Origin: a virus | IMG/VR virus record: IMGVR_UViG_3300021373_002018 | Span: 1-28,276 of that record | Strand: one strand, 5' to 3' | Length of the DNA stretch: 28,276 nt | Shown here: piece after piece, positions 3,426-20,500 of the stretch | Layout: every line of letters starts with the position of its first letter | How positions within the stretch are numbered: position 1 is the stretch's first letter | Program-made: the position numbers and the translations under genes | Notes under the pieces: generated by a model | Database searches by the model: none | What the model saw: the letters and a program-made list of their open reading frames with translations, nothing else | Told to the model about the DNA's origin: nothing

Positions 3426-3785
3426 TTACCTCGTTACTGAAGGGGTAACTTTTACCTTACCCTCTAGAATTCGTTCGATAATAGTATTACTTGAACTATC
3501 CAAGAAGGACAATTCAACATCATATACGTATCTTAGCCTAGGGTTGAGTGCATCGGTTTGAGTGTTAGTGAGGGATAGGGTTAAAATACCGTCCGTTGCA
3601 GGGGTCGCCACCTCAGAGTTGAACGTGACGATTTCGTCACTATCCACTGAGTTATAACTTCTTTTCATTTTAGCAAGAACAGAGTGTCCAGTCAAGTCTT
3701 TTTTTGAACCGTCAGTTTCCTGAAGGTGTAACTCGATTGCGACATCTGCGCCTTGATCTATCGTAAAGTCTTCGTAATCTGCCAT
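3426..3785 (-). CDS. Small beta-rich structural protein, possibly BppU-N / Ig-like, 119 aa
   Basis: This is a 119-residue, beta-rich, soluble protein with no signal or membrane segment. The opening pattern (DFTIDQGADVAIELHL, then DGSKKDLTGHSV and KMKR) and the late 'LRYVYDVELSF' followed by 'ILEGKVKVTP' resemble the N-terminal domain of upper baseplate proteins (BppU_N-like). Small Ig-like structural proteins of marine T4-like phages look the same. It is the first gene after a late promoter core at 3820-3827, so it heads the 3785-1 fibre transcript. A connector or baseplate role is inferred from neighbours only, and the fold assignment is tentative. Its start is fixed by the 5' end of the transcript and the lack of an upstream in-frame alternative close to the promoter. 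Confidence 0.75.
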   Translation of the reverse strand: MADYEDFTIDQGADVAIELHLQETDGSKKDLTGHSVLAKMKRSYNSVDSDEIVTFNSEVATPATDGILTLSLTNTQTDALNPRLRYVYDVELSFLDSSSNTIIERILEGKVKVTPSVTR

Positions 3786-3852: not shown

Positions 3853-4548
3853 TTATTCTACAGATGATATCTCTTCTAAAAGATCTTCTCTAAAGTCTGC
3901 GGATAGTTCAGAGGTGTCAAAGGTAAATGACACGGTACATCTCCAACAGTCAGTTTTTGCAGAGTGATAAAATAATCTCTCAGGTTCTTCATAGTGACCA
4001 AAGTAAGCAGCTTTGCACTGCCAACCTGCATGGTCTTGCATTACGACAATTTCTTTTGAGACTGGATCTACATAGGAAAATGATCCATCTCCTGTTTCCG
4101 ACCAAGTAAAGATCAGATTATATGCGGGTGCGTTTGCATTGTTGTGCCATGAGATGTATCCGCCTGGCGGGTACCATGCACTCAATGCGTTGTGTCTTAC
4201 TCCCAACCATTGGATAAGATCGTTGTTCATGAATCCTAATTCTGCGGTCTTATCCTTCCTCATCATAGGATCTACACCTTTATTAAAGAATTCATGACCC
4301 TTTCTATGAGTACTTAACTCATACCCATACATACTATCCGGAAACCCTTCATGGTCATGACCTTCATTTCTAACTTTATCAAGTTCAGGTTGACCCGTCC
4401 AGTAGTGGCGTTGTGATGCATGTTCTTTACAAGACAGGTGGAAGATTCTTTGAAACTCATCCACGTCATCCATGAGAAAATCTCGATAACGATCTAGTCT
4501 CGTTAACAAGTCGAGGTTTCTGACAGGAATGTCTTGCATATAACTCAT
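3853..4548 (-). CDS. 2-oxoglutarate/Fe(II)-oxygenase-like protein, 231 aa
   Basis: The C-terminal half looks like a double-stranded beta-helix oxygenase of the type frequently found in marine T4-like phages. The segment 'WYPPGGYISWHNNANAP' gives a first metal histidine candidate (H135). 'RLFYHSAKTDCWRCTVSF' gives a second histidine (H195) and an arginine eight residues on (R203) that could bind the 2-oxoglutarate carboxylate. The usual acidic ligand of an HxD/E motif is not present, since H135 is followed by N-N. Residues 1-100 carry no recognised domain and are rich in His, Asp and Arg. The ATG overlaps the stop of the glycosyltransferase-like gene by four bases (ATGA), so the two are translationally coupled. 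The substrate is unknown; a structural protein or a glycan made by the neighbour are possibilities. It could also be a catalytically altered member of the fold. Confidence 0.7.
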   Translation of the reverse strand: MSYMQDIPVRNLDLLTRLDRYRDFLMDDVDEFQRIFHLSCKEHASQRHYWTGQPELDKVRNEGHDHEGFPDSMYGYELSTHRKGHEFFNKGVDPMMRKDKTAELGFMNNDLIQWLGVRHNALSAWYPPGGYISWHNNANAPAYNLIFTWSETGDGSFSYVDPVSKEIVVMQDHAGWQCKAAYFGHYEEPERLFYHSAKTDCWRCTVSFTFDTSELSADFREDLLEEISSVE

Positions 4549-5273
4549 ATAATAAATCCGTCTTTATCTAGTCCACAAGAGTAGTGTCTAATAACCACTT
4601 CCCCTTTCGGACGTGTTCTTGCCCAGTTTAGGGCGTTGTAATAATTCCATCTCAAGTCATCTTCGAAAATACCTACCTTGAGATCCTTATATTTGTCATC
4701 TTTCTCCGTCAACCACCATAACGAGAACTGATCCCATGATTGTAGGGACTCACTGTATCCTTCTGGCCACCAGTGACCATCCATCTGTGCCTTGGTTAGT
4801 TCCCACCAATCCTGCATAAACTCACGTACAATAGGTTTTCGCATATCATACAGAGCAATGCCACCACACAAAGTAAATTTAGCCGGGCCTTCCGGAGTAT
4901 CAAAGTCACGTTCTGCATAGACATATGATCTATCGTCCGTCAGTTCAGAGAACATAACGTCAGAGTCACCCAGTTCATCAAAGATAACTGCAATGTCTTC
5001 ATGTTCACATTCCATGTCAACGTCTAGGTATGCAGTTAAATCATAGGGAGACCTTGCCATACCATCTAGTTTTGCACGGTAGTGATTTGAACACCACTCT
5101 ACATTATCAAACAACTCACGATGTTGTTCTTCAAACATCCACTCTTCACAGAACAGAGTAATCTTTGCATCTTCGTAATAGTCTAAGATAGACTCTGCTA
5201 AGTTAATCGCATATCGGTAGAAATTAATTTTCTTCGATGCAACTAAAACATAACCTTTACTCGGATTCGACAT
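4545..5273 (-). CDS. GT-A-fold glycosyltransferase-like protein, about 242 aa
   Basis: The protein begins SNPSKGYVLVASKKINFYRY, a typical beta-strand plus helix of a nucleotide-sugar-binding fold. It has 'AYLDVDMECEHEDI', whose D-V-D (D84 and D86 from the chosen start) fits the DxD metal/nucleotide-sugar motif. 'TLCGGIALYDMRKPIV' resembles the acceptor-site strand of GT8-like and related enzymes. No membrane segment is visible, so it should act in the cytoplasm. I chose the ATG at 5273 rather than the in-frame TTG at 5288 because the bases between them form an AGGAAAAGG ribosome-binding site. With this start the gene overlaps the upstream coiled-coil gene by 17 bases and the oxygenase-like gene downstream by 4. 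Position between fibre genes suggests modification of a virion component or of cell-surface glycan, which is inference. Confidence 0.7.
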   Translation of the reverse strand: MSNPSKGYVLVASKKINFYRYAINLAESILDYYEDAKITLFCEEWMFEEQHRELFDNVEWCSNHYRAKLDGMARSPYDLTAYLDVDMECEHEDIAVIFDELGDSDVMFSELTDDRSYVYAERDFDTPEGPAKFTLCGGIALYDMRKPIVREFMQDWWELTKAQMDGHWWPEGYSESLQSWDQFSLWWLTEKDDKYKDLKVGIFEDDLRWNYYNALNWARTRPKGEVVIRHYSCGLDKDGFII

Positions 5274-5721
5274 TTTCCTTTTCCTCAAGTTCTTCTTGTA
5301 GAAGCATCATAGCATAAAGATTTACTTCGATCTTAGATTTGGCACGTCTAATTTTTGCCTTCATCTTTCTGTTCTTAGATTCTTTAATCTCTTCTGTTTC
5401 GAAGACTTCCAACTTATAGTTGAATAGATCCTCTAACTTACGTGCACGTGCATGTTCCACATCACGTTGTTTCTTTTCTTCTGCTTCTGCAGCCTTACGA
5501 GTCTTCCGTTCTTCGGTGTTCTTATCAATCTCTTCTTCACCACGAGCTTCGATCACCTCATTGAACAATTCATTCTCAGTACCATCTTTGTCATGACGAT
5601 TCAACAACATAACTTGTCGTTGTTCTCTGCCACCATCATCAATCAGTTCCAGAATACAGTTGAGTTGTTTCTTCTCATCTGTTTCCCAAAACGCATTATC
5701 CATCCATCTTTTAACGCTCAT
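5257..5721 (-). CDS. Coiled-coil protein downstream of the giant fibre gene, 154 aa (possible assembly factor)
   Basis: This is a 154-residue, highly charged protein. The first 50 residues (MSVKRWMDNAFWETDEKKQ..., then CILELIDDG) look globular. From about residue 55 to 150 it is dominated by Glu, Lys, Arg and Ala in heptad-like runs, consistent with a long helical coiled coil. A good AGGAGA lies 8 bases before the ATG at 5721. The gene follows the 1748-aa protein after a 56-base gap and overlaps the glycosyltransferase-like gene. Small coiled-coil proteins next to fibre genes often act as fibre chaperones (T4 gp38 and gp57A occupy such roles), so an assembly role is plausible, but sequence homology to those was not recognised. 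A virion component is the main alternative. Confidence 0.7.
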   Translation of the reverse strand: MSVKRWMDNAFWETDEKKQLNCILELIDDGGREQRQVMLLNRHDKDGTENELFNEVIEARGEEEIDKNTEERKTRKAAEAEEKKQRDVEHARARKLEDLFNYKLEVFETEEIKESKNRKMKAKIRRAKSKIEVNLYAMMLLQEELEEKENVESE

Positions 5722-5777: not shown

Positions 5778-8700
5778 TCAAGCAGTTCTCACATATAAAG
5801 TGTATGTCTCAATCACCTCAGTTGCAGAATCTAAAGTTGTTCCTGTATAGTTTCCGACAAAGTTCCTTGAGTAGTTGCCTATAAAGTCCCTACTATAGTT
5901 ACCAATAAAGTCCCTAGTGTAGTTACCTGTAAAGTCACCCAAGTATTGAGAGGTTCTAGTACGATTAAAGTTAGTCGTATATGTAGAGTTCCTCGTTCTA
6001 CTATAGGTTGACAATCTTGTTCGTGTTGATACACGAGTAGAGACTCTGGTGTACTCACCTGTAAAGGTTCGAGTATAATCTCCAGTAAAGTCTCCTAAAT
6101 ATTGACTTACACGGGTTCTGCCATAGTTACCTATGAAGTCACGACTATAGTTACCTGTAAAGTCTCCCGTGAAAGTTTGTAATGAGTCACGAGTATAGTC
6201 CCCAATAAACCCACGAGTATAGTCTCCGGTATAATCACCCGCAAATGTTCTGGTATAGTTACCAGTAAAGTCACGAGTAAAGTTGCCGGTATAATCACCC
6301 ACAAAATCAGTCTGTCTATCACGGCTGTAGTTACCTACGAAGTCACGACTATAGTTTCCGGTGTACTCACCTGCAAAGTTCCTTGAGTAATTTCCAACAA
6401 AGACACGTGAGTAGTTACCTGCATAGGTAGATACACGAGTACGTTGACTGTTTCGAGTATATTCACCCACGAAAGTTCTACTATAATTACCAGTGTAGTT
6501 ACCACCAAACGCACGTGAGTAATTACCAATGAATGATCTTGAGTAGTTACCTATATAGTTCGCAACAAAATCAGTGGCCCGATCACGGGTATATTCACCA
6601 ACAAAGTTTCTGTTATAATTGCCAGTAAAGGTTCGTTGTGAAGTACGTGTCGAAATGCGAGTATAGTTACCGATAAACCCACGTGAGTAATTACCAACAA
6701 AGGTTTGTTGTGAAGTACGTGTTGAGATACGAGTATAATTACCAGTGAACGTTCTAGCATAATTACCGACATAGTTCGCAACGTAGTCAGTAATACGAGT
6801 ACGGGCATATGCACTTACACGGTTTCTACTATACGCACTTACACGGTTACGAGTGTAGGCACTCACACGGTTGCGAGTCGATGTACGTGTATACTCACCA
6901 ACGAAGTCACCCGCAAAGTTACCTGCGTAGTTTCTCGAATAGTTACCAGTGTAATCTCCGGTAAATGTCCTTGCGTAGTTACCTGATACGTTGATCAAGT
7001 CTGCAACACTTGGACATAATCCATTAGTCGTATCGTCTACACGAGGTTCCCAGAACTGTTGGTTTGTGCTAGTGTCCGTTGAGTAGTACAGGTATGAACG
7101 GTGTCTTGCCTGTGTGTTAGTTGTTTGCCACACAAAGTCTCTCTGTGCACCTATAACCTTTTCACCTGCCCTGTTGTAGATACCTGAATCGGCATGGAAT
7201 GCACCCGTTCCAGATCCAGAAGGAAATACGTGACCTACAACTAAGAACCATTCTCCCTCAGATGCGTTATCCCACCAACCACGTGCTTGGAAGTATGGGT
7301 TAGTATAAACAGTTCCGTTGTCTCTACCAAGAACACCAATGTTAGTATTAGCAGCGTTCCAACCATTCACACCAAGATAAAAACTACCGTTACCAATCGT
7401 GTTACGTCTTACCCACACAGACCATCGATAGAGTTTAGTATGATCAATCGCAAACTTAGATGTGTTCCAACCACCGTCTGCGTTTGAGGTTGCGTCTTGG
7501 TTTGATACGTCCCAAACAACATCTTGACCTTTCGGAGACGCATCAACAATACGTGAGTTACCGTCACCGTTCTGACCATAGTTGGTTGCACTACCTGTAC
7601 CAGTTGTCCACTCTGGGAAGTTCTGATACAACAAATTTGATTGATCTGAGTATCTTGTACCTACTGTTCCAACGTAAGTAACTACACTATCACGAGTACT
7701 TGTTCTTGTGTATGTAGAAACTCTTGCACGTTGATAGTTCTGCGAATATGCAGATGACCGACTACGAGTTGATATTCTTGTATAGGCAGATGTACGAGTA
7801 CGTGTACTGATTCTAGTATATGCACTTACACGAGATCTAGTATAATCTGTTGCACGAGTTCTAGTATAGGCAGATGTACGAGTACGTGTACTAATTCGAG
7901 TGCTGTTACGAGTATAGGCAGATGTACGAGTACGTGTACTGATTCGAGTATAGTTTCCGGTGAAGTCCCCAGTGTAATATCCAGTACGCACATAGTCACC
8001 CACGAAGTCACCCGCATAGAATCCTATGCGAGTGTAGTTACCCGTAAAGTTACCTGCATAGAATCCAATACGAGTATATCCAAGTATACGAGTAGAAGTA
8101 CGAGTAGAGATACGTGTGTAGTTACCTGTATAGTATCCAATACGAGTATAGTTTCCTGTGTAATAGAGGATACGTGTATAGTTACCAGTGTAGGTCACAT
8201 TCCGTGAATAGTTACCAGTGAAGTTACCTGCGTAGTACAAGGTTCTACTGTAGTTGCCTGTATAATATAAAGTTCTTGCATAGTTTCCGGTAAAGTTTCC
8301 GGCAAAGTTACCAGTAAAGTTACCAGTAAAGTTACCTGCATAGTAAGCTGTTCCTGTGTAGTACAGCGTAGCACCGCTTTTCGGGGCGATACGAGTAAAG
8401 TTTACGGCCGCATTGACACTGGTACGTGTACTAATACGGGTACTGATACGTGTACTGGTACGTGTACTAATACGTGAATAACTCGCAGCAGCAGTACGGA
8501 TACGGGAGTATGATGCGCCCGCAGTACGGGTACGGGTACTGATACGACTGTAGGAAACTGCCGCAATTCGTGCACGGGTGTATGTTCCCGTTGCAGTACG
8601 AATACGAGTGTACGCAAGAGTTCGAGTGGAAATACGTGTGTAGTTTCCAGTAAAGTCACCTGCGTAATAACCAGTTCGGTTATACGTCAAAATACGAGTT

Positions 8701-11024
8701 GACGTTCGAGTCGAGATTCTGGTATAATCTAAGATACGTGTACTGGTTCGAGTACTCGTTCTCTGGTAGTTCAGAATACGAGTACTGATACGAGTAGAGT
8801 TACGTGTGTAGTTTCCGGTATAGTTTCCCGCAAAGTTTCTTGCATAGTTACCTGTAAAGTCGCCTGTATAGTTTCCGACAAAGTTTCTTGCATAGTTACC
8901 TACAAAGTTACCAACGTAATTACCAACAAAGGTTCTGTTATAGTTACCAGTATAGTTTCCCGCAAAGTTTCTTGCATAGTTACCAGTATAGTTTCCTGCA
9001 AAGGTTCTTGAGTAGTTACCTACATAATCTCCAGTAAATGTCCTTGCATAGTTTCCGGCAAAGTTTCCGGTAAACGCTATGACATCATCACGAGTATAGG
9101 TGGATACACGACCACGTGTATATACGGCAGAAAAGATTCTTGAACTTGTACGTGTAGAAGTACGTGTAGAAGTACGTGCATAGTTTCCTACGTAGTCACC
9201 TATGAAGGTACGAGAATAGTTTCCTACGAAAGTTCTACTGTAGTTTCCGGTAAATGTTCTTGAGTAATTACCTACAAAGTCGCCAGTAAATGTTTGCAAA
9301 CGATCACGAGTGTATGCAGATATACGTGCACGTGTATAGTTACCTGTATAGTTACCTGCATAATTGGATACACGACTTCGAGTATAAGCGGATATACGAG
9401 TACGTGTATAATCTCCGGTATAGTTCCCTGCGTAGTTACTGACCCTTGCTCTTGTGTAAGCCGATACTCTGGTACGTGCGTAGTTACCAATAAAGTTTCC
9501 TACGAAAGTTGTTAAACTATCACGAGTATATGCAGAGTTTCTGGTACGACTATAGGAAGAGTTACGAGTCCTAGTACTAATACGAGTATATGCAGAGACA
9601 CGGTTCCTTGCATAGTTACCAATATAATCTCCAAGGAAATCTCTGGTACTGGTACGTGTATATGCACTACTCCTGTTTCGAGAATAAGAGGATACCCTAG
9701 TTCTTGAGTATACTGCAGAATACGCAGAGACACGAGTACGTGAGTAGTTACCCACGAAGTTCCCAACATAATTTCCTGCAAAGTTTGTAGTATATGCAGA
9801 GGTACGAGTTCTGGTGTATGAACTGATTCTAGATCTAGTACTATTTCGGGTGTAATTCGATATTCGAGTTCTAGTGTAGTTCCCTATGAAATTGCCAACG
9901 AAGTCGTTTAGACTATTTCTGGTATAAGACGAAACCCTTGTTCTAGAATAATTACCTTCGAAGTTACGTGAAAAATTCTGAGTACTGTTACGAGTATAAT
10001 TTGAGACACGATTTCTTACATAGTTACCAGTGTACTCACCCGTGTATTCCCCCGCAAAGTTCCTTGAGTAATTACCTACAAAGTCACGAGAGAAATTACC
10101 GACATAATCTCCAATGAAATCTCTTGCAAAGTTATCTGTACTGTTTCGGGTATACTGTGAGTTGCGGGTTCCCGCATATGCGGATCCACGAGTACGTGAG
10201 TATGCAGATGCACGTGTACGAGTATACGCAACTTCTGAAGTTGTACGTCTAGTGTTAGTTGCAGTTCCACGTGCCGCCCAAGTACCTGCATCTGTTGGTG
10301 CACCTTGAGTAGCAGATCTTAATTGATAAGATCCAATGTTTCCATCGATAGCACGTTGGGTTTTAACATGTTGTCCCAATGAGTACTTAATTTGACCGTC
10401 ACCCATTTCAGTGATACCAGAAAATGCTCCTGCACTGTCAACATTTAACCCTGTTAAACTCATTGGTCTAACAGCAGTTGGTGCAGACATCGACTGTCTT
10501 TCATATAGATTAGTAACAGTAGACGTACCATTACCTAAAGTATCTGTGAAAATATTTGCGGTGTGTTCTGCCCAGTCTGCACTTGGAGCAGATGTACCCA
10601 TACGGAATGCGCCTGGATATTCAGATGTTTCAATACGAGATAATAAACGATTAGACAATGTTGCCATATCACTATCGTTCATCTCATAGAAATCACCATT
10701 ATGGAATCCTATAGGTCTACGATAATGAGTACCATTTGTATCTGCCGCTCCGTTTCTTATTTGACGAAGGTTGTATGAAGTTGTTCCTGAAGTAATAGAA
10801 GATGCCGGATGAGTTCCGTCTGGTTCATTGTAGTAAGAATCAACGAAGGTTCCAATTAATGTACCACCATTGTTACCTGCTTTTAACATACCTGCGGAGT
10901 TTACACCACCATCTTTTAGGTGCAACCCTGCTTGATAGGCCAAGTAGTTTTCTTCCGTAGGAGACATCTCCTTCAGATCACCGTTGGTACCTTCTAATTT
11001 TAGTGGGATATTAGATGCAGCCAC
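5778..11024 (-). CDS. Giant tetrapeptide-repeat fibre-like protein, 1748 aa
   Basis: Residues 1-265 form a non-repetitive head (NIPLKLEGTNGDLKEMSPTE..., then NYLAYQAGLHL and later GQHVKTQRAIDGNIGSYQLR) that is paralogous to the head of the upstream 961-aa protein. Residues 266-1119 and 1348-1728 are near-continuous four-residue units such as GNYT, RTFV, RTRV, SAYT, RIST and RTST. Residues 1120-1347 interrupt the array with a Trp-rich beta-sandwich-like domain, probably carbohydrate binding. The last 20 residues end ETYTLYVRTA, as in the paralogue (DTYTLYVRTA). The start is GTG at 11024, because a TGA lies two codons upstream in frame; it has AAGAG 6 bases ahead and aligns with the paralogue's start. 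A late promoter core lies 37 bases upstream. The likely role is a long shaft plus receptor-binding element; trimerisation and location on the virion are inferred. Confidence 0.85.
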   Translation of the reverse strand: MAASNIPLKLEGTNGDLKEMSPTEENYLAYQAGLHLKDGGVNSAGMLKAGNNGGTLIGTFVDSYYNEPDGTHPASSITSGTTSYNLRQIRNGAADTNGTHYRRPIGFHNGDFYEMNDSDMATLSNRLLSRIETSEYPGAFRMGTSAPSADWAEHTANIFTDTLGNGTSTVTNLYERQSMSAPTAVRPMSLTGLNVDSAGAFSGITEMGDGQIKYSLGQHVKTQRAIDGNIGSYQLRSATQGAPTDAGTWAARGTATNTRRTTSEVAYTRTRASAYSRTRGSAYAGTRNSQYTRNSTDNFARDFIGDYVGNFSRDFVGNYSRNFAGEYTGEYTGNYVRNRVSNYTRNSTQNFSRNFEGNYSRTRVSSYTRNSLNDFVGNFIGNYTRTRISNYTRNSTRSRISSYTRTRTSAYTTNFAGNYVGNFVGNYSRTRVSAYSAVYSRTRVSSYSRNRSSAYTRTSTRDFLGDYIGNYARNRVSAYTRISTRTRNSSYSRTRNSAYTRDSLTTFVGNFIGNYARTRVSAYTRARVSNYAGNYTGDYTRTRISAYTRSRVSNYAGNYTGNYTRARISAYTRDRLQTFTGDFVGNYSRTFTGNYSRTFVGNYSRTFIGDYVGNYARTSTRTSTRTSSRIFSAVYTRGRVSTYTRDDVIAFTGNFAGNYARTFTGDYVGNYSRTFAGNYTGNYARNFAGNYTGNYNRTFVGNYVGNFVGNYARNFVGNYTGDFTGNYARNFAGNYTGNYTRNSTRISTRILNYQRTSTRTSTRILDYTRISTRTSTRILTYNRTGYYAGDFTGNYTRISTRTLAYTRIRTATGTYTRARIAAVSYSRISTRTRTAGASYSRIRTAAASYSRISTRTSTRISTRISTRTSVNAAVNFTRIAPKSGATLYYTGTAYYAGNFTGNFTGNFAGNFTGNYARTLYYTGNYSRTLYYAGNFTGNYSRNVTYTGNYTRILYYTGNYTRIGYYTGNYTRISTRTSTRILGYTRIGFYAGNFTGNYTRIGFYAGDFVGDYVRTGYYTGDFTGNYTRISTRTRTSAYTRNSTRISTRTRTSAYTRTRATDYTRSRVSAYTRISTRTRTSAYTRISTRSRSSAYSQNYQRARVSTYTRTSTRDSVVTYVGTVGTRYSDQSNLLYQNFPEWTTGTGSATNYGQNGDGNSRIVDASPKGQDVVWDVSNQDATSNADGGWNTSKFAIDHTKLYRWSVWVRRNTIGNGSFYLGVNGWNAANTNIGVLGRDNGTVYTNPYFQARGWWDNASEGEWFLVVGHVFPSGSGTGAFHADSGIYNRAGEKVIGAQRDFVWQTTNTQARHRSYLYYSTDTSTNQQFWEPRVDDTTNGLCPSVADLINVSGNYARTFTGDYTGNYSRNYAGNFAGDFVGEYTRTSTRNRVSAYTRNRVSAYSRNRVSAYARTRITDYVANYVGNYARTFTGNYTRISTRTSQQTFVGNYSRGFIGNYTRISTRTSQRTFTGNYNRNFVGEYTRDRATDFVANYIGNYSRSFIGNYSRAFGGNYTGNYSRTFVGEYTRNSQRTRVSTYAGNYSRVFVGNYSRNFAGEYTGNYSRDFVGNYSRDRQTDFVGDYTGNFTRDFTGNYTRTFAGDYTGDYTRGFIGDYTRDSLQTFTGDFTGNYSRDFIGNYGRTRVSQYLGDFTGDYTRTFTGEYTRVSTRVSTRTRLSTYSRTRNSTYTTNFNRTRTSQYLGDFTGNYTRDFIGNYSRDFIGNYSRNFVGNYTGTTLDSATEVIETYTLYVRTA
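5841..6983 (-). repeat. Tetrapeptide (12-nt) repeat array, C-terminal block of the 1748-aa protein
   Basis: About 95 four-residue units in one reading frame, dominated by GNY[TSA], R[NTD]F[VTAI] and RTRV-SAY[TS] combinations. Codons of equivalent residues vary freely (GGT/GGA/GGC, AAC/AAT), so most units were not copied recently at DNA level. The block starts immediately after the inserted domain ('NVSGNYARTF') and keeps the four-residue phase to 'GNYTG' near the C-terminus. Confidence 0.85.
6984..7665 (-). other. Inserted domain in the repeat protein: probable carbohydrate-binding beta-sandwich
   Basis: Residues 1120-1347 break the tetrapeptide pattern. The segment is rich in Trp and Tyr, with 'LYRWSVWVRRN', 'GSFYLGVNGWN', 'ARGWWDNASEGEWFLVVGHV' and a closing 'QFWEPRVDD' plus 'CPSVADLIN'. 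This order (strand with YRWSVWV, then W-rich loop, then F-x-x-P-R-x-D) resembles non-catalytic carbohydrate-binding domains found in marine phage fibres. The family is inferred from pattern only. It contains the only cysteine I noticed in the array region. Confidence 0.6.
7780..7950 (-). repeat. Three near-identical ~35-nt direct repeats inside the array
   Basis: Copies begin near 7780, 7864 and 7912 and share the core GTATAGGCAGATGTACGAGT (read on the plus strand) plus about 14 further bases with only one or two changes. Offsets of 84 and 48 bases are multiples of 12, so the copies are in the same repeat phase. They encode RISTRTRTSAYTR. The close DNA identity contrasts with the synonymous divergence of the rest of the array and points to recent local duplication. 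Confidence 0.75.
8335..8402 (-). other. Conserved interruption motif of the tetrapeptide array (copy in the 1748-aa protein)
   Basis: Residues 875-897 read NFTRIAPKSGATLYY followed by TGTAYYAG and break the four-residue phase with Pro-Lys. The 961-aa paralogue has a matching break at 12165-12227 (FTRIGPKGNTQYY, LGTAYYTG). Its retention in both proteins suggests a structural junction. Confidence 0.7.
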
Positions 11025-11049
11025 AAATCACTCTTTTGTCAAAAATTTA

Positions 11050-11073
11050 AAACTTATCTCTATTTATAAGTTT
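11050..11073 (-). other. A/T-rich hairpin overlapping a late promoter core
   Basis: AAACTTAT at 11050-11057 and ATAAGTTT at 11066-11073 are an exact 8-base inverted repeat with an 8-base loop, just downstream of the 961-aa gene's stop on the minus strand. On that strand the second arm is followed by TTAAATTTTT, so it could act as a weak terminator for upstream transcription. The stem has only one G-C pair per arm, making this tentative. Confidence 0.3.
11061..11068 (-). promoter_or_regulatory. Candidate T4-type late promoter core (TATAAATA) for the 1748-aa gene
   Basis: An exact TATAAATA on the minus strand lies in the 51-base gap between the 961-aa stop (11076) and the 1748-aa GTG start (11024), leaving a leader of about 30 bases. 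It would let the larger repeat protein be expressed independently of its paralogue. Confidence 0.65.
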
Positions 11074-11075
11074 AT

Positions 11076-13961
11076 TTAGGCTGTGCGAACATACAACGTA
11101 TAGGTGTCTACAGCAAGTACTGTGTTACCAATCGTTTGTCCGAAGTAGTCTCCTGTGAAACTTCTAGAATAATTACCTGCATAATTTCTCGCATAGTTAC
11201 CCACATAATCACCAACAAAGAATCTAGTAAATGTACTTGCACTGTTACTGGTATATTGACTTACACGAGTTCTACTGAAATTACGTGAAAAATTCTGGGT
11301 ACGGTCTCTAGTATAGGTACCTTCATAGGAACTAGTTCTGGTACGAGTATAGGTGCCACTGTAATCACCCAAGTAGTTACCTATAAAGTTACCAAGATAA
11401 TCTGCAGTGTAATTACCTAAGTAGTTAGATGTTCTAGTTCTTGCAAAAGCACTGGTTCTATTGTTTCGAGTAAAGTTTCCTTGGTAGTTACCAGTGTAAT
11501 TACCCGCAAAGTTTCCACCAATATAGTCACCTACAAAGGGCGAAGTTGCCGCATATTGAGAAACCCTTGTTCTATTGAAATTCGAGGTTCTAGTACGAGT
11601 TGATGTTCTAGTACTAATACGAGTGTAATTACCTGCGTAGTTTCCTGCATACGCATTTACATAGTTACCAGTGTAATTACCTGCGAAGTTTCTACTAAAG
11701 TTACGGGCATAATCACCTGCATAGTTTGGTATATAGTTACCAGTGTAATTGCCTGCAAAGTTCCTTGAGTATACACCGACATAAGCGCCCGATTCTGGGC
11801 CACCACTGTAGTTACCAGTATAGACATCCTCGTTAACATAGTTACCAGTGTAATTACCGGCAAAGTTCCTTGAGTATGCAGATGTACGTGTACTGGTATA
11901 GGTGGCAACGTAGTCACCAACAAAGTTGGCAATTACAATTCTAGTAAAGTTACTAGTACGGGTACGTGAATAATCTCTCGTAAATCCTCCACCATAGTTA
12001 CCTATAAAGTTACCTGTGTAACTCTCGGTACCGACACGATCTCTAGTATATACCTGAGTACCCTTTTCCTGATCAGGGATTGGCCCGATATAGTCACCAA
12101 CAAAAGTTACTGTACTAGATCTTGTGCGAGTGCTATCACGAGTATAACTACCACCTATATAATCACCAGTATAGTATGCAGTACCTAAGTAGTACTGGGT
12201 ATTACCTTTTGGCCCGATACGAGTAAATGGCCCTGTTACACCAAGACTTGATCTGATTCTAGTGAAGTTACCAAGGAATGTACGTGCGTATTGACCACTG
12301 TAATCTGCAGTGTAGTTACCAGTGTACGTTTCATCTCTTGATCTAAGGAAGGCAGAATCTCTATTGCCTGTAAAGTTCCTTGAGTAATTAGATGTACGAG
12401 TACGAGTCGAGATTCTGGTAAAGTTACTACTACGAGATCTCGTGAAATTACGTGCGTAATTACCTGTGTAGTTAGATGTTCTAGTTCTGGTCGAGATGCG
12501 AGTGAAACCTACCGTCCTTGTGTATTCCCCTACATAGTCTCTCGAATAATTAGATGTACGGGTACGAGTCGAGGTTCTAGTAAAAGCAGACTCTCGTGTG
12601 CGGGTCGAGTTACTTACATAGTTACCAAGGAAGTTACCTGCATAGTTACCTGCAAAGTTTCCACCAATATAGTCACCTATAAAGTTTCTTGCATATGTTG
12701 ACCCACGACTTCTCGTGTAGTTACTAGTACGAGTACGTGTACTGGTACGTGTGAAGTTTGCGGCATAGTTACCTAAGTATCCAATGGTTCTGGTAAAACC
12801 TGCATAGTTACCTACGAACTCCTGAGTATAGTCACCTATAAAGTTTCTTGCATAGTTCTCACTAAAGTTTCTTGTGAAGTTTTGGGTTGAATCACGAGTG
12901 GATATTCTCGTGTAGTTACCAGTGTAATTACCTATAAAGTCACGTGAGTAAGTACCTGAGTAATTACCTACGAAGTTTCCAAGGAATTCACCTGTATAGT
13001 TACCTATAAAGTTACGAGTATAATTACCAATAAAATCCCCAATAAAATCCGAAGATGTGGTGCGTTGATAGTTATCTGTGAAGTTACGTGAGTAGTTACC
13101 AATATATACAGATGATCTCGAACGTGTATAGTTTTGTTCGTTAACTAAACGAATTGTGTTTGTCGCAGTACCAACACTTCTCCAAGTACCTACCGCTGGC
13201 GCACCTTGAGTCGCAGTACGAAGTAAGTAAGATCCAATGTTGTCACTGATCGCTCTACGAGTCTTTGCACGTTGACCTAATGTAACTTCGATTTGTCGTT
13301 CGGTTAACTTCTCTAAACCTTGGTAAGTACCAGTGGATCCACTACTTCTTTTAATACCCACGATAGAAGACTCACCGTTCTGATCATCACGGATAGAAGT
13401 AGGTGCGGTCATAGAAGTTCTGCGCCATATACTATAGTCGTTTATAGTAAATGCATTACCTGCACTATCTGCACGTTGATCCACCATAATACTTGGTAGT
13501 AGTATATCGTAATCTGAACTTGGACGTGACGCAGATAATTTTAGACTGCCAGGATAATCCGACAATGCAATACGAGAATTTAGATCATCTACGAGAGTGT
13601 TCAGATCGGTACTATTCATCTCATAAACATTACCATCATAGTGCGCTACAGGTAATCGGAAATCACTGTCGGTCTCTGCCGCAGTACCGTTAATCTGATA
13701 AATGTTTTGACTAGTAGAGATAACAGATTGTTGATCGTATGGGTGAGTTCCTACAGGTTCGGGAAAGTACGTATCAGTTAACGTACCAATCAACCTGTTT
13801 CCGGAAGCAGTTGTGGTTAGTAGTCCAACATCTGAACTGTCGGCCACAGCAGTATGACTACCGACCAGATAGGCAAGATAGTTCTTCTCTGTTGAGCTAA
13901 CCTGTTGGAGCTTACCATCACTGTCTTTTAACTTTAACGGTAATGCCTTATTATCCGACAT
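11076..13961 (-). CDS. Tetrapeptide-repeat fibre-like protein, 961 aa, paralogue of the 1748-aa protein
   Basis: Residues 1-275 are a head domain related to that of the 1748-aa protein. Shared landmarks include PLKLKDSDGKLQQVSSTEKN, NYLAYLVGSH, the LIGT-TDTYFPEPVGTHP stretch, YEMNSTDL, and GQRAKTRRAISDNIGSYLLR. Residues 276-937 are tetrapeptide units (GNYT, RNFI, RTRT, SNYT, FTRI and similar), with several breaks such as 'GPFTRIGPKGNTQYY' and 'GPIPDQEKGTQVYTRD'. The tail ends DTYTLYVRTA. Unlike its paralogue it has no Trp-rich inserted domain. The ATG at 13961 follows the 1101-aa gene's stop by 17 bases and has AGGAAG 5 bases ahead. A late promoter core lies about 100 bases upstream, inside the 1101-aa gene. 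It is likely a structural or receptor-binding fibre partner of the larger paralogue. Confidence 0.85.
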   Translation of the reverse strand: MSDNKALPLKLKDSDGKLQQVSSTEKNYLAYLVGSHTAVADSSDVGLLTTTASGNRLIGTLTDTYFPEPVGTHPYDQQSVISTSQNIYQINGTAAETDSDFRLPVAHYDGNVYEMNSTDLNTLVDDLNSRIALSDYPGSLKLSASRPSSDYDILLPSIMVDQRADSAGNAFTINDYSIWRRTSMTAPTSIRDDQNGESSIVGIKRSSGSTGTYQGLEKLTERQIEVTLGQRAKTRRAISDNIGSYLLRTATQGAPAVGTWRSVGTATNTIRLVNEQNYTRSRSSVYIGNYSRNFTDNYQRTTSSDFIGDFIGNYTRNFIGNYTGEFLGNFVGNYSGTYSRDFIGNYTGNYTRISTRDSTQNFTRNFSENYARNFIGDYTQEFVGNYAGFTRTIGYLGNYAANFTRTSTRTRTSNYTRSRGSTYARNFIGDYIGGNFAGNYAGNFLGNYVSNSTRTRESAFTRTSTRTRTSNYSRDYVGEYTRTVGFTRISTRTRTSNYTGNYARNFTRSRSSNFTRISTRTRTSNYSRNFTGNRDSAFLRSRDETYTGNYTADYSGQYARTFLGNFTRIRSSLGVTGPFTRIGPKGNTQYYLGTAYYTGDYIGGSYTRDSTRTRSSTVTFVGDYIGPIPDQEKGTQVYTRDRVGTESYTGNFIGNYGGGFTRDYSRTRTSNFTRIVIANFVGDYVATYTSTRTSAYSRNFAGNYTGNYVNEDVYTGNYSGGPESGAYVGVYSRNFAGNYTGNYIPNYAGDYARNFSRNFAGNYTGNYVNAYAGNYAGNYTRISTRTSTRTRTSNFNRTRVSQYAATSPFVGDYIGGNFAGNYTGNYQGNFTRNNRTSAFARTRTSNYLGNYTADYLGNFIGNYLGDYSGTYTRTRTSSYEGTYTRDRTQNFSRNFSRTRVSQYTSNSASTFTRFFVGDYVGNYARNYAGNYSRSFTGDYFGQTIGNTVLAVDTYTLYVRTA
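11150..13140 (-). repeat. Tetrapeptide (12-nt) repeat array of the 961-aa protein
   Basis: About 165 four-residue units with the same vocabulary as the larger paralogue: GNY[TSA], R[ND]F[AIST], RTRT-SNY[TS], RIST. There is a higher share of Phe-containing and SNYT units and more frequent breaks. Synonymous codons are scrambled between units. The array starts at NYTRSRSSVYIGNY and ends near RSFTGDYFGQTIGN. Confidence 0.85.
12165..12227 (-). other. Conserved interruption motif of the tetrapeptide array (copy in the 961-aa protein)
   Basis: Residues 579-599 read FTRIGPKGNTQYY then LGTAYYTG. They match the break in the 1748-aa protein at the F-T-R-I, P-K, Y-Y and G-T-A-Y-Y positions with one residue fewer between them. 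Confidence 0.7.
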
Positions 13962-13978
13962 TCTACTTCCTATCTATT

Positions 13979-16900
13979 CTAGTTAAGAAGAGTACCGTTT
14001 TCGTCATAGATTAAAACAGTCCTTCTTGCGAGTTCATTCAGTGCATTTACGATGTTATCATTATTTATACCTGCAGTAGCAAAGAATCCACCGTCTGTAC
14101 TGGAGTCTAGATTATACAGTTTTCCAACTCGTGTGTCAAGTTCCGCAATGTCACTGTCATTTGAGAGTATATCATCATGAAGTTCGTTGATACCACCCGC
14201 AACATCTTGTGCAGTAGTATCAAGATCTTCGTCTGTGTGAAGAGCACGTCCATGAATCTCGACTTTACTTGCAGTCATCTCCACCGCAAGAGTAGATCCA
14301 GACCAGATATCTAGTTGATTACTACTGTTCTGTAAACGACCAAACTGAGTTCCTGCATCCTTGAGATATATGTCACCACCATCTGCATCAAGAGTGATAT
14401 CTCCTGCAACATCATATGTCAAGGATCCTACAACATCAATCTCTTGGTTGGTACCAAGGTTGTAGGTAAACTTAGTTACCGCATTATCCTTGAAGAATAT
14501 ATCCGCACCGTTTGCATCTAGTACGATGTCACCGTTCGCATCCAATGTGATATTGGATCCTGCAGTAATAGTTGTATTACCACCTGAAGTGATACTCTGG
14601 GTTGTTCCTGCAGTTGATGCAATTGCACCTGTCGCAATCTCTGTGAAACTTGCAGCGCTATCAGTATGAGAACCAGATACTCCGTGAGATAGATTACCAT
14701 TAATATCTAAGGTATTGGTTGCACCCATACCATACGAGAATCTTGCAGTTCCACCATCTTTAAAGTCAATGTCCCCACCGTCTGCATCTAGTACAATATC
14801 ACCAGAGGCATCTACTGTATATTTACCAGATACATCCATCTCCAATGAGTTATCATTGTTAAGAGTAAATTGGACTGACTGGTTATTTGCTTGACCACTT
14901 GTATGTTTAAATCTAATCTGGTTGCCATCTGCTACAAGATCAATATCACCAGTCGCATCCACTTTAACATCATTGGGTGCTGTGATTATATAATTACCAT
15001 CCGTATTTGAAACTGTATGAGTTACTTCATCAGAATTGATACCATTTTTAAATATAATATCATTGCCATCGGCATCTAATGTGATATCTCCAGAAGCATC
15101 TACTAAGAAGTCACCAGTGACATTATGAGTCTGATCTAATGACGTTGTATTCAAAGTACCCAAAGAAGTACTTGACATATTTCCAGTAGATGTTATACTG
15201 TATGTACCATCGGCCGAATCAGAATAGTTACCTGATACTGTACGGTCTAGATTACCAGTGACATCCAGAGTATTCGTTGCACCCATACCATACGCAAATC
15301 GTGTAGTACCTGCGTCTTTGAAATCAATGTCTGCACCATTTGCATCAAGGACAATATCCCCTTCTGCATCTACAGTAAAGTTACCTTCCGCATCTATTAA
15401 AGTATTTCCACCCGAAGCGATAGTAGCGTTACCATCTGCAGTCATAGACAATGCACTGTTTGTGTATACAGTGAATCCGTCTGCGGCATTGATTGTTCGG
15501 ATACCTGCAGATGAGTCTGTATGATCTCCTGTTACATCTACATTGAGATTCCCTGATACATCCTCAGTCAGATTTCCGGTTACGTCTAGTGTGTTACTTG
15601 CACCTAGACCGTATTCAAAACGAGCAACACCTGCATGTTTAAAGTCAATGTCATTACCGCCAGCATCCAGTACTATGTCACCTGCGACATCGTATGTTAA
15701 GGATCCTGCAACGTCTACTTCTTGGTTTGTACCGAAGTTGTATGTGAACTTAGTGACACCACCATCTTTGAAGAAGATATCTGAACCATCAGCATCAAGA
15801 GTAATATCTCCAGATGCATCTACAGTGTAATTACCTGTTACTGTATGGAGTTGTGCACCAGACTTGGTGTTGAACGTTCCAGAAGTGCTAACGTCAGTAT
15901 TTCCAGTCGCACCGATATGGTACGTACCATCTGCACTGTCAGAGTAATTACCTGAGACAGTTTGTGATAGGTTTCCAGTGACATCAAGTGTATTGGAAGC
16001 ACCCAACCCGTATTCAAAACGAGAGGTTCCACCGTGTTTGAAGTCAATGTCGGTTCCACCGGCATCAAATACAATGTCACCCGAAACGTCATAGGTAAGA
16101 TTACCAGTTACATCAATCTCGTTCGTTGCACCAAGATTGTGTCGGATTCTTAATTGACCTGCATGTTTGAAGTCAATCTGATCACCGTCAGCATCAAGGA
16201 TCACATCACCAGTTGCATCTACGAAGAAGTCTCCGTCAACGGTGTGAGTTGCTGCAAGTGAATTTGTGTTGAACGTACCACGAGTTATAAGTTCTGTGTT
16301 ACCCGTTGCACCAATGTGTAAGGTACCGTCTGCACTATCTGATTTATTACCAGATACAGTCTCGGTAAGATTACCTGTAACGTCATATGTGTTAGTTGTA
16401 CCAAGCCCATATTCGAAACGAGAAACACCTGCGTGTTTAAAGTCGATATCGTTACCACCTGCGTCAAGGACAATATCGCCCGCAACGTCATAGGTCAAAG
16501 AACCTGCTACGTCTACCTCTTGGTTTGTACCCAAGTTGTAGGTGAATTTGGTTGTACCTGCTTGCTTGAAGTAGATATCATCTCCGTCTACATCAAGACT
16601 GATATCCTTTACTGCGTCTACAGTATAGTTGCCAGGCGCAGTGATTGTGAAGTCTGCGTTATCTGCAAGAGTATGAGTAACAGTGTCAGCACCCGCACCG
16701 TTCTTGAATATAATATCATTGCCGTCTGCATCAAGTGTAATGTCTCCACTTGCATCGACCAGTACATTACCTGTTACGGTTGCAGTGAGATCATCCCCTG
16801 CAGTAAAGTCCATTGTACTGACAGATGTCAGATCATAGAGATCAGAGACATTAATATCATACGCACCAGTAACGTCTTGTACGTTTGTCGAACCTAGTGT

Positions 16901-17284
16901 GAATGCAATGCGGTTGACCGAATCATCAAGGAAGTTGATGTTCGATCCTCCGGCATCAAGATTAATATCTGCAACTGCGTCTATGAATGTATCATTACCT
17001 GATCTCAGGATGATGTCAGTACCACCATTCTGTGCAGTTGATATTAATAATCGTGTTTGAGTTTCGTAACTAGAACCTTCATCCCATTTACTAGCGCCTT
17101 GGGGATAAAGAATTTCACCCGCAGAGGCATCGAATACCGTTTCTATTTCGTTGATAGCAGATACTACATCACTATCATTATAGGTATTCAGATCATCGGG
17201 GTCGCCAACGTTATAAGAAACCGTATTGAGGTTATCTCTCAGTATCTTGAACGAGTCGCTTAATCTTGTAAAGGGACGTGCCAT
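13979..17284 (-). CDS. Repetitive fibre protein with 'GDI.LDA.G.DI.FK' units, 1101 aa
   Basis: The head (MARPFTRLSDSFKILRDNLN, then YNDSDVVSAINEIETVFDA) is alpha-helical in character and typical of marine phage fibre N-termini. Between about residues 100 and 970 it carries some 14 units of the form [VD]DAxGDI[TV]LDAxGxDIxFK, several followed by 'F.YGLGASNTLDVTGNL' and 'VSGNYSDSADG' segments, which suggests a beta-solenoid shaft. The C-terminus changes to a helical piece (LDTTAQDVAGGINELHDDIL) and ends RRTVLIYDENGTLLN. A further copy of the 'N.I..A.NE[IL]' pattern (INEIETVF, INELHDDI, LNELARRT) occurs at both ends, as in fibres with short helical caps. The ATG directly abuts the stop of the 78-aa gene (TAGATG), with only a weak GAGAAA ahead, so reinitiation is likely. 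Role: tail fibre or fibre-like structural protein; no enzymatic motif seen. Confidence 0.85.
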   Translation of the reverse strand: MARPFTRLSDSFKILRDNLNTVSYNVGDPDDLNTYNDSDVVSAINEIETVFDASAGEILYPQGASKWDEGSSYETQTRLLISTAQNGGTDIILRSGNDTFIDAVADINLDAGGSNINFLDDSVNRIAFTLGSTNVQDVTGAYDINVSDLYDLTSVSTMDFTAGDDLTATVTGNVLVDASGDITLDADGNDIIFKNGAGADTVTHTLADNADFTITAPGNYTVDAVKDISLDVDGDDIYFKQAGTTKFTYNLGTNQEVDVAGSLTYDVAGDIVLDAGGNDIDFKHAGVSRFEYGLGTTNTYDVTGNLTETVSGNKSDSADGTLHIGATGNTELITRGTFNTNSLAATHTVDGDFFVDATGDVILDADGDQIDFKHAGQLRIRHNLGATNEIDVTGNLTYDVSGDIVFDAGGTDIDFKHGGTSRFEYGLGASNTLDVTGNLSQTVSGNYSDSADGTYHIGATGNTDVSTSGTFNTKSGAQLHTVTGNYTVDASGDITLDADGSDIFFKDGGVTKFTYNFGTNQEVDVAGSLTYDVAGDIVLDAGGNDIDFKHAGVARFEYGLGASNTLDVTGNLTEDVSGNLNVDVTGDHTDSSAGIRTINAADGFTVYTNSALSMTADGNATIASGGNTLIDAEGNFTVDAEGDIVLDANGADIDFKDAGTTRFAYGMGATNTLDVTGNLDRTVSGNYSDSADGTYSITSTGNMSSTSLGTLNTTSLDQTHNVTGDFLVDASGDITLDADGNDIIFKNGINSDEVTHTVSNTDGNYIITAPNDVKVDATGDIDLVADGNQIRFKHTSGQANNQSVQFTLNNDNSLEMDVSGKYTVDASGDIVLDADGGDIDFKDGGTARFSYGMGATNTLDINGNLSHGVSGSHTDSAASFTEIATGAIASTAGTTQSITSGGNTTITAGSNITLDANGDIVLDANGADIFFKDNAVTKFTYNLGTNQEIDVVGSLTYDVAGDITLDADGGDIYLKDAGTQFGRLQNSSNQLDIWSGSTLAVEMTASKVEIHGRALHTDEDLDTTAQDVAGGINELHDDILSNDSDIAELDTRVGKLYNLDSSTDGGFFATAGINNDNIVNALNELARRTVLIYDENGTLLN
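14062..14069 (-). promoter_or_regulatory. Candidate intragenic late promoter core (TATAAATA) for the 961-aa gene
   Basis: An exact TATAAATA on the minus strand lies inside the 3' end of the 1101-aa gene, about 100 bases before the 961-aa start. It also encodes part of a Gly-Ile-Asn-Asn stretch, so chance occurrence is possible. Confidence 0.4.
14350..16990 (-). repeat. Array of ~14 'GDI.LDA.G.DI.FK' coding repeats in the 1101-aa fibre
   Basis: Units recur roughly every 60-90 residues as alternating long and short versions. One composite, beginning EVDVAGSLTYDVAGDI and running to DIDFKHAG, appears twice with identical protein sequence (around 15630-15730 and 16430-16530). The DNA differs at synonymous sites, which indicates selection on the protein rather than recent copying. 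Confidence 0.8.
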
Positions 17285-17522: not shown

Positions 17523-20500
17523 TTATACCGCCAATGCTATAACTCGTAGATCACGGAATTTCGGTACTTCCGCACTGTTAGTGGACTGCATCACAATCTT
17601 GATTTGGAACTGAGTGAACTTCACTAGAGTTCCGTTATCACCACCCACCAGATATTCATACTCACGGAATACGTTCTTGTTTGAGTCTGGTAATAGATCT
17701 ACTTCAGGTTCAACAAGGTTCCATGGATTACCGAAGATCGATTCTCCACCAGTCGAGGTTCTCCAATATACTTGGAATGAAGTTACCTTGGGTTTGTTTG
17801 CCGCAAGGAAGATCTTCAGACCTGTCGCATCTGTCGCAAGAGTAGTAACCTTGGTGATATGTTTCGCAGATTCAGTACCACCATCCGGATGCGTCTCAGG
17901 AACATATGTAAGAGGTACGTTGTATCCACTAACAGTTGTTTGAGGAGTATTCGCAGAGACCGACAATCCTGTGGCATGATCAGTTGAGTTGACAGTAGTT
18001 GCACCGTCAGATACCGTCCATGTTCCAGTAGTAGATGTATGGACTTTAGTAGTAAATCCTAAGCCATCACTTCGACTAATGATCAGACCATCCGAATCAC
18101 CCGCAACAGGTTGGAACACATAACCTCTTCGGAAAGAAGGATATCCTTGTGCTATCGTTTCACCAGTGGCAAAAGTATTGTTGAGTCGAACAGCACCAAC
18201 ACGTGGATCTGTTGCCTCTAGAACCAGATTAAGTTTCTCACCATTACTATAACTACCAAAGGTCAAAGTCTGTTCAGTACCTTCAACACCACTAGTTTGT
18301 TTAGTGATTAAGTTGTGCATTGTATGACAACCTAATGTCTCCAAGTCAATGATAGGTGAGACTAATGGGTTAGTAGTCTTCAAAGTACACTGTAATGTCA
18401 GAGATCTTTCACCACTTAGTCCGGCACTACCAGTTTGATTCTCGGTTGATCTGTTATAGATTGCACGAGGTGTCTTAAACCGGATCTGCTTGTCAGACTC
18501 AATCGGTATGAACTTAGAATCTTTGACAAATCTAGTCTCAGTACCCGCCAATGAAGACTGAGTAGTAGTCTTAATAGAAGGAGTAAATGTAGTCTCCTTC
18601 GGCAATGTTGGGTTGATTATGATTCTCAAGTTTTCATAGTTCTTATTCAGTGTAGATGTAACCTGTTGTCCACCAAACCACTTACGTGATGTAGCGGTTG
18701 CATCTGCTTGGTACGTGTATCCACTGTTATCTGCTCTTATTACGGTTCTCTTACCAATGACTTGTACACCAGTTAGACCGTTTCCAAGATTTTCGGCAGA
18801 GTCGATACCACGAATCCATGCTTTGTCACCTGTACGTAATCCATGACCTTCCATCATTACACGAACAATGTTACTACCAGAATCCATCACAAGAGGATCC
18901 TTTCCTAATGCCTTAGGCGGAACGTTAATGTTCTCGAAGATAGCGTTACCACTAGTCTTAAAGTTTGCAACATTAATTCGGAATGTCAAGTCAGTGTTAC
19001 TTGCAGGTTCCCAATGTTGACTGTTTTGAGACTTGAAGAACACACCAGTTGCAGGTTGTTGTGAAATAAATGTCTGATTACCACCAACCGCATTTTCACC
19101 AACTGTTGCAACGTAAACGTTGTAATTGGTGTCGTTACTATCAGGAGTCAGTACAATCGCATACTCACCTCTTGACAAGTACTGTGGTGCATCAAAGGTA
19201 AACGTAGTACCATTTTGCAATACAGTCTTGTTAGTAGGATTGGACGGTACTAAGTTTATCTGACTTGGTTTCAGGTGTGTTGAACATAGAGATTGACTAG
19301 ACGAAGGTACACCTTGTACCGTAGGTCTGATCTCACATTTAACACCGTTAGCAGCATTAGAACTCTTAGACGCAAAGTATACTGTCACAGAAGTAACATT
19401 AAGTCCTGAAGTTTCCTCAACTGAGAAAGTCTGTGCAACTGGGTCATGGTGAATTAAACCCTGATCAGTGTGTCTACCTTGACGTAGACCACCTCTAGTA
19501 GAGGCATTGTATCCTGCTCCTTGACTTCTACCCTCATCTTCTCGACTGATAAAGTTACTACCACTCTGATTGTAGTAAGCACCGTATTCACCTTCATCAA
19601 CTGCTTCTTCAAGGTCTTCATCGGTATCGTAATTGTCACTACCTTTTGTAGTACCGCCAGGAGGTGTATCTTCTTCCTCTTCGTCATCATGATTTGGTGG
19701 CTGGGTCTCAGTCTGATCAGAACGTTCGTATGTAATATCCTCAGAAACAAACTCTTCAGTAGTTTCTGTACCTGTTACGATTGTAGTAGTAGTGGAAGAA
19801 GATCTTACGTCTTCTGCAACTTCTTCTGTCACTACAGTATCAGTCCAAGTAGTTCTCTCTACCTCCATCTCACGATCAACGTCATAGGTAGTAGTACCAG
19901 TCACATGAAGTATTCGAGTGATGTAAACTTCATCTTCATACTCTTCAAGAGTACCCGCAGCCACAAACAATGCTTTAGCGAATGACATAGCACCACCAGT
20001 ATCAGCAGAGTTAACGTCAGTTAGCATGAACTCACGTTTACCAGTGGCGAATCGCATGAAGTTGTTATTCGGTACTTCGAATTGACCCTGAAGGATACCT
20101 TCAGCATCCGAAACTAAAGTAGTGTAACCCTGACTGTGTTCTTGTGTTGGCTTTTGAGTTCCATTACCATCTGCCTCAGTCGCACTATTCTCTACGTCTT
20201 TTGCAGACATAGTTTTGAAAGTTTGTGACCTACAGAAAGTACTAACGTTCGTATTGTCGAAGAACGGGAAGTACTGTGTATTTGGACGCAATCCAGTACA
20301 CTTAAAGTTAATGTCGATAGATCTCATGAATGGAATTTCTACAAGTTCGACTACTTTTCTACCTACGACATCACGCAATGTGGATTCACTAGAGATACGG
20401 TTTACAGTATTTTCTGTAGTCGTAGTCGTAGTGATCTCCGCAATACCTTCATACTCATTTGTAGTAGTGATGGTTTTAGTCTGTTCGTAAGTAGATGTAT

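Follow-up and report, generated by a model that had tools for sequence, protein, structure and literature searches.

The closest described counterparts of the repeat proteins in this study belong to five different systems. The C-terminal triple beta-helix of T4 gp5 is a long, slender beta structure of the virion and is built on a fixed octad, VxGxxxxx (PMC4576200). Mycobacteriophage Tweety gp54 contains tens of four-residue repeats flanked by unique N- and C-terminal parts. Its AAxx repeats are encoded by GC-rich, near-identical 12-bp DNA units, and the protein has a counter-defence role and is not a fibre (PMC2884959, PMC9262239). In Mimivirus, the hydroxylase/glucosyltransferase L230 and R699 act on collagen, a repetitive fibre protein (PMC9546862). 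Pelagimyophages and cyanomyophages have, at a similar genome place downstream of VrlC, a host recognition cluster with tail fibres and glycosyltransferases; neither a tetrad-repeat family nor a fixed cassette is mentioned in the available part of that account (PMC7029224). T4-like cyanophage structural proteins (S-RIM2 R21_2007, AGH06777; AG-345-D19) have GN[VL]T stretches, which are likewise G-[ND]-hydrophobic-T units.

The window, a virus record of 28,276 bases, encodes two proteins, A and B, that resemble each of these systems in some respects. A hydrophobic/aromatic-x-Gly core is shared with T4 gp5, as would be a long slender beta structure in the virion, but in A and B the tetrad is the unit of insertion and deletion and the order of units is aperiodic. 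Compared with Tweety gp54, the units are R/G-led and their DNA is diverse. The S-RIM2 protein differs in having only a short GNVT stretch, a negative net charge and other flanking domains, and it lacks Arg units, an aromatic face and all the units of the rule described below. The tblastn matches to S-RIM2 were rejected as family members for being a different protein of this kind, as were the contigs of marine virus AG-345-D19, the proteins of which are of GNVT type. The Mimivirus system serves as a working analogy for two genes next to A, p231 and p247. These encode separate small proteins, unlike L230, and the Mimivirus target is Lys in collagen Gly-X-Y, whereas A and B are non-collagen proteins and the arrays of such proteins contain almost no Lys or Pro. 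In all relatives with checkable flanks, such proteins are adjoined by a protein of hydroxylase fold and a probable sugar transferase, and A and B are therefore probably attachment fibres of a new, chemically modified kind.

Repeat proteins, gene order and relatives

The main genes of the window are all on the minus strand. In gene order, baseplate wedge genes are followed by a 2134-aa baseplate-region protein (17523..23927; phrog_358), a 78-aa protein, a 1101-aa repeat protein (13979..17284), B and A. After A come p154, p247, p231, a 119-aa protein of tail-fibre assembly type (3426..3785) and tail-fibre-like genes. The 119-aa protein matched phrog_3304 ('L-shaped tail fiber protein assembly'), its best match being phrog_1084, of unknown function. 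The 1101-aa neighbour has VDASGDITLDADG repeats and matched baseplate-type PHROGs. It was also observed to be made of VDASGDITLDADGxDIxFKDGG repeats that have diverged, with matches of DUF2345/DUF5649 type, and looks like another beta-helical baseplate protein.

Two giant open reading frames had been predicted in this region, and both were found in the ORF list and by HMM on the minus strand: A with 1748 aa (5778..11024) and B with 961 aa (11076..13961). A has a GTG start, as does its ortholog L007:12913-17760. The N-terminal domain of A (PLKL..EENYLAY.., 10233..11024) is common by alignment to B and phage C48C1. It is followed by a first tetrad array (residues ~265-1118, 7671..10232; HMM), an inserted domain of 226 aa (residues ~1119-1344, 6993..7670) seen in alignments with L007 and relatives, a second tetrad array of 95 units (5835..6992; HMM) and the C-terminal signature ..ETYTLYVRTA (5781..5834), recognized by comparison of homologs. 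B has the same N-terminal domain and C-terminal signature. The arrays are rich in R, Y, G, S, N and T, and the net charge is +113 for A and +34 for B.

Relatives were searched by scanning viral contigs with a DNA pattern for GNYx-R[ND]Fx-GNY. The pattern was found in at least 119 sequence stretches, and at least 116 loci hold repeat ORFs, a number that includes the window and a few loci obtained otherwise. The tetrad-repeat proteins are thus large and widespread in viral contigs. Among the matches listed, most complete repeat ORFs have both the PLKL..ENYLAY domain and the ETYTLYVRTA end. In a set of 50,697 phage records, the N-terminal domain of B, p231 and p247 each had a match in C48C1 (Kyanoviridae) and in no other phage; C48C1 is the only named phage with the tetrad family, in the form of a single 3347-aa protein. 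This protein (L008, 13989-24032) has several globular inserts between its tetrads and an exact tandem duplication of ~80 residues (RHRSYLYYSTDTSTNQQFFEPRVDDM...FSGQY), which is either a recent duplication or an assembly artefact. The N-terminal domain had no match in the genome contigs searched, and so no host or prophage link was obtained.

Proteins of the A/B type are nearly invisible to Pfam and PHROGs. The N-terminal domain of A had no usable Pfam, PHROG or PDB match, and HMMER searches of Pfam, PHROGs, NCBIfam and PDB gave nothing usable for the tetrad repeats. No Pfam repeat family matched A or B at or above the gathering score, and PHROGs gave weak matches, with families whose function is unknown. 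A phmmer search of PDB with B and the last 307 aa of A gave no match to E 10, although the composition filter of HMMER may hide repeats. The original prediction that no described family follows such a rule is consistent with these searches and with those of the open literature; none was found in the sequence libraries and open-access literature (subscription papers being outside the scope).

The 226-aa inserted domain is absent from the L007 ortholog. Relatives are present in C48C1, in proteins annotated as virion structural in Vibrio phages, and in large Vibrio and Acinetobacter phages. We regard it as a mobile virion domain that possibly binds carbohydrate. A match to MppJ with an E value of ~0.003 was judged to be a chance match.

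Tetrad units and the nearest-neighbour rule

Units were located with an HMM that cycles through four positions and was trained on A and B. This four-state model found 293 units in 8 runs in A and 141 units in 9 runs in B, about 430 together; an earlier count of about 300 was close for A, and one of about 165 was too high for B. Position 1 is R/G/S, position 2 N/T/D, position 3 Y/F/R/S and position 4 T/V/S/A. The tetrad was confirmed as the unit, but the four-residue phase is not unbroken as had been supposed: the tetrads of A are interrupted by the 226-aa non-repeat domain, and phase slips, mostly of 2 residues, occur in both proteins.

The units had been claimed to be interdependent, and a comparison of transitions with shuffled units agreed with this. 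Position 3 carried 0.84 bits of mutual information with position 1 of the following unit in A and B, and 300 shuffles gave 0.16 or less. Three of the particular transitions predicted were recovered in A and B. RxFx was followed by G[NDE][YF] in 43 of 50 cases (86%), RxRx by SxY/F (predicted as S-x-Y-x) in 47 of 55 (85%), and R[TI]ST by another R unit in all 31 (100%). A fourth, from R-[DN]-[SR]-L to [QTN]-[TD]-F, was weak (4 of 10) when tested as R[DN][SR][LV] to [QTN]x[FY]. The same rules were found in 66 independent ORFs from 55 other contigs (9451 units, dereplicated, among the matches listed), with 0.67 bits over 8918 pairs and a null of at most 0.02 in the same set. The rule is therefore not private to the genome of the window. 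An explicit tetrad rule could guide structural work and the design of beta-fibres.

The cassette of p154, p247 and p231

The most informative context of the repeat genes is a conserved downstream cassette, which the original prediction had missed. p154 (5257..5721) encodes a small charged protein and is nearly always located directly 3' of the repeat gene, p247 (4545..5288) encodes a glycosyltransferase-like protein, and p231 (3853..4548) a protein with a predicted prolyl-hydroxylase/2OG-oxygenase fold; all three are on the minus strand. Flanking genes were mapped onto the repeat loci by tblastn. The order repeat gene(s)-p154-p247-p231 was fixed in nearly every assessable locus, at identities down to 30-36%. 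Among the matches listed, all three genes were present in 42 of the 50 repeat loci with 2.4 kb of downstream DNA. Six of the remaining eight have B-type genes, followed by an A-type partner that is cut off by the end of the contig, and two (L016, L031) have other repeat proteins without the C-terminal signature. With these eight set aside, the 42 assessable repeat loci among the matches listed all had the complete cassette.

p231 has at least 577 relatives. Seen from the p231 side, a recognized repeat ORF was present in 60 of the 61 loci with enough upstream DNA among the best 80 loci, and p154 and p247 in all 61; distant p231 relatives are under-sampled here because the 80 loci are best matches only. 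The 61st locus, L206, shares these N- and C-terminal parts with the others and has, judged by eye, a variant array. In three p231 loci the repeat ORF is located ~5 kb upstream with other genes between. Genes between the repeat gene and p247 were observed in L150, L151 and L164, and in this set one intervening gene ends in an intramolecular-chaperone-like segment (YYSDERLKDLKG).

An AF2 model of p231 was obtained with a pLDDT of 93.3, from an alignment in which one row from a GenBank record was left out. The model has the double-stranded beta-helix fold of prolyl-hydroxylase type. The nearest solved folds were the prolyl hydroxylases P. putida P4H and PHD2 (Foldseek E 6e-6 to 1e-4, with 6e-6 for P. 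putida P4H). Comparison with PHD2 (VIA) gave Z 11.3 and rmsd 3.6 with 149 aligned residues, prolyl hydroxylases in general having Z ~10-11. The invariant residues of p231 are H135-x-N137, H195 and R203, and H135, H195 and R203 are spaced much like the residues of PHD2 that bind iron and 2OG. The HxD/E...H iron triad is incomplete, as the invariant Asn137 replaces the usual Asp/Glu, and the catalytic activity of p231 is therefore uncertain. In p247, D89xD91 and H235 are invariant in the alignment. Pfam GT2 was touched by 21 of 31 p247 homologs, weakly (best E 0.0019), and no convincing match was found among PDB profiles. p247 is a probable sugar transferase, DxD glycosyltransferase-like, an assignment that is weak by sequence.

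On the best explanation, A and B would be adsorption fibres associated with the virion of a marine phage that is T4-like and related to Kyanoviridae. A virion location is suggested by the gene context and by the relatives of the inserted domain in annotated virion proteins. The strongly basic Arg/Tyr-rich fibre would bind the anionic surface of the host, p231 and p247 would most likely modify the fibre, and p154, a possible assembly chaperone, would help the fibre to assemble. That the fibre is the substrate of p231 and p247 is suggested by the conservation of the cassette and by the modification of viral collagen (PMC9546862). Against modification, the variable even positions are without a conserved target residue, and Lys and Pro, the usual hydroxylase targets of the p231 fold, are almost absent from the arrays. 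The whole explanation, in which A and B are Arg/Tyr-rich, homo-oligomeric beta adsorption fibres modified by their cassette partners, is given a little under an even chance. The proposal of an undescribed class of virion fibre, an aperiodic tetrad beta polymer modified by its own hydroxylase-fold protein and glycosyltransferase, is a tentative one.

It is also conceivable, if somewhat unlikely, that the fibre is the same and that p247 and p231 act elsewhere, on host lipopolysaccharide or another part of the virion, being merely co-inherited in a host-recognition cluster. GT8 enzymes are reported from the host-recognition cluster of pelagimyophages, where O-antigen modification has been proposed (PMC7029224), but a gene order fixed to 30-36% identity is tighter than expected from mere regional sharing. 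If the cassette does modify the fibre, these phages would have a dedicated hydroxylation/glycosylation pathway for a tail fibre. Many marine T4-like phages would then have their own equivalent of collagen maturation, acting on a fibre that is not collagen, and such modification could bear on adsorption and on protection in dilute seawater.

Fold of the tetrad arrays

Unit order in A is colinear with the L007 ortholog across most of the arrays, residues ~820-940 of A aligning poorly. Over its last 404 residues, A can be aligned to three homologs (L007, L072, L118) at 66-71% identity with no gap. Between A and L007, positions 1 and 3 were identical in 87 and 85% of cases, against 50 and 48% for positions 2 and 4. 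B is conserved less well than A (71/67% against 36/35%), and the contrast between alternate positions was repeated over 142 homolog pairs. Indels were collected from 333 homolog pairs, giving 333 well-placed indels inside arrays and 68 outside. Inside, 301 of 333 (90%) were multiples of 4, 26 were 2 mod 4 and 6 were odd, and outside 12 of 68 were multiples of 4 and 35 odd. Fisher tests gave P 1.5e-33 for multiples of 4 inside versus outside and P 1.2e-4 for odd versus 2 mod 4 indels, values that are only indicative since the homolog pairs have common ancestry and the flanks alone served to tell the indels apart.

Both the conservation of alternate residues and the avoidance of odd indels are expected of a beta strand in which one face is constrained, and the arrays may well consist of such strands. 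A long beta array of tetrads would then extend between the conserved N-terminal domain and the ETYTLYVRTA signature. The odd positions would make up one face, its packing governed by a local side-chain rule by which, two residues on, bulky F calls for G, R for S/T, S for R, and Y for R or G, and the even positions (N/T/D and T/S/V/A) would form a face free to vary. The chains would most likely pair in register with identical chains, giving a homo-oligomeric and probably trimeric fibre; we infer both this oligomeric state and an adhesive role.

The coupled octads of the original prediction were not retained as a fixed unit. Indels inside arrays were 4 mod 8 in 198 cases and 0 mod 8 in 103, the single-tetrad type thus being commoner than the octad type, and the dominant lag varies by phage (2, 3, 5, 6, 7 or 11 units) with no fixed longer period. 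The tetrad is the repeat unit, and the octads reflect local coupling. The same results make a T4 gp5-type trimeric beta-helix, with its obligatory 8-residue VxGxxxxx repeat, an unlikely structure for the arrays, and a PDB sequence match was not found with B or the last 307 aa of A. What remains of the comparison with gp5 is a resemblance, not a family assignment: the dominant F-x-G-N-Y octad, with F followed by G, has an aromatic-x-Gly core like VxG (PMC4576200).

The highest lag is 24 residues in A and 12 in C48C1, which could be read as the fixed coil of a monomeric beta-solenoid. An AF2 run on the last 404 repeat residues of A, with 15 homologs aligned, gave no fold (pLDDT 31.3), and the strands placed 24 apart in parts of this low-confidence model are not usable as evidence. 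The preferred lag is not common to homologs, no constant coil length was found among them, and most indels have other lengths than the multiples of 12 or 24 that stacked coils should require. The solenoid is thus improbable. In-register pairing is preferred because the tetrad and the nearest-neighbour rule are the sole invariants and no longer period is common to the homologs.

Equally doubtful is an Arg/Tyr sticker-and-spacer polymer that is intrinsically disordered and either adheres or forms condensates. The composition, the net charge of A and the low AF2 confidence would fit such a polymer, but the strict four-residue phase, the colinear unit order, the gapless conservation over 95 units, the conservation of alternate residues and the bias against odd indels do not. 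Unit order like that of the arrays is seldom conserved in disordered regions. A beta-structured fibre is, in contrast, supported for A and B at the sequence level. The earlier guess of a trimeric beta-prism or beta-solenoid stands to this extent, through alternate-residue conservation, the odd-indel bias, the tail/baseplate context and the relatives of the inserted domain.

An artefact of DNA slippage or assembly, to which the 12-nt unit and the one exact internal duplication in C48C1 might point, is highly improbable and slippage was ruled out as the origin of the arrays, as the 14 copies of RIST are encoded by 13 different 12-mers, A and B lack exact DNA repeats of at least 36 nt, orthologs are colinear and a single open frame is kept throughout the arrays in many independent contigs. 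The codon differs at 576 of the 989 residues identical between A and L007 (58%). Identical tetrads in diverse 12-mers and colinear orthologs point to selection on the protein and not to DNA slippage. More regular arrays were observed in L014 and L091, the repeat ORFs of which have a near-perfect period of 5 units (20 residues) with a class autocorrelation of 0.8-0.9. VGQVPEQY motifs are present in L091, and both arrays are related to the tetrad family but much more regular.
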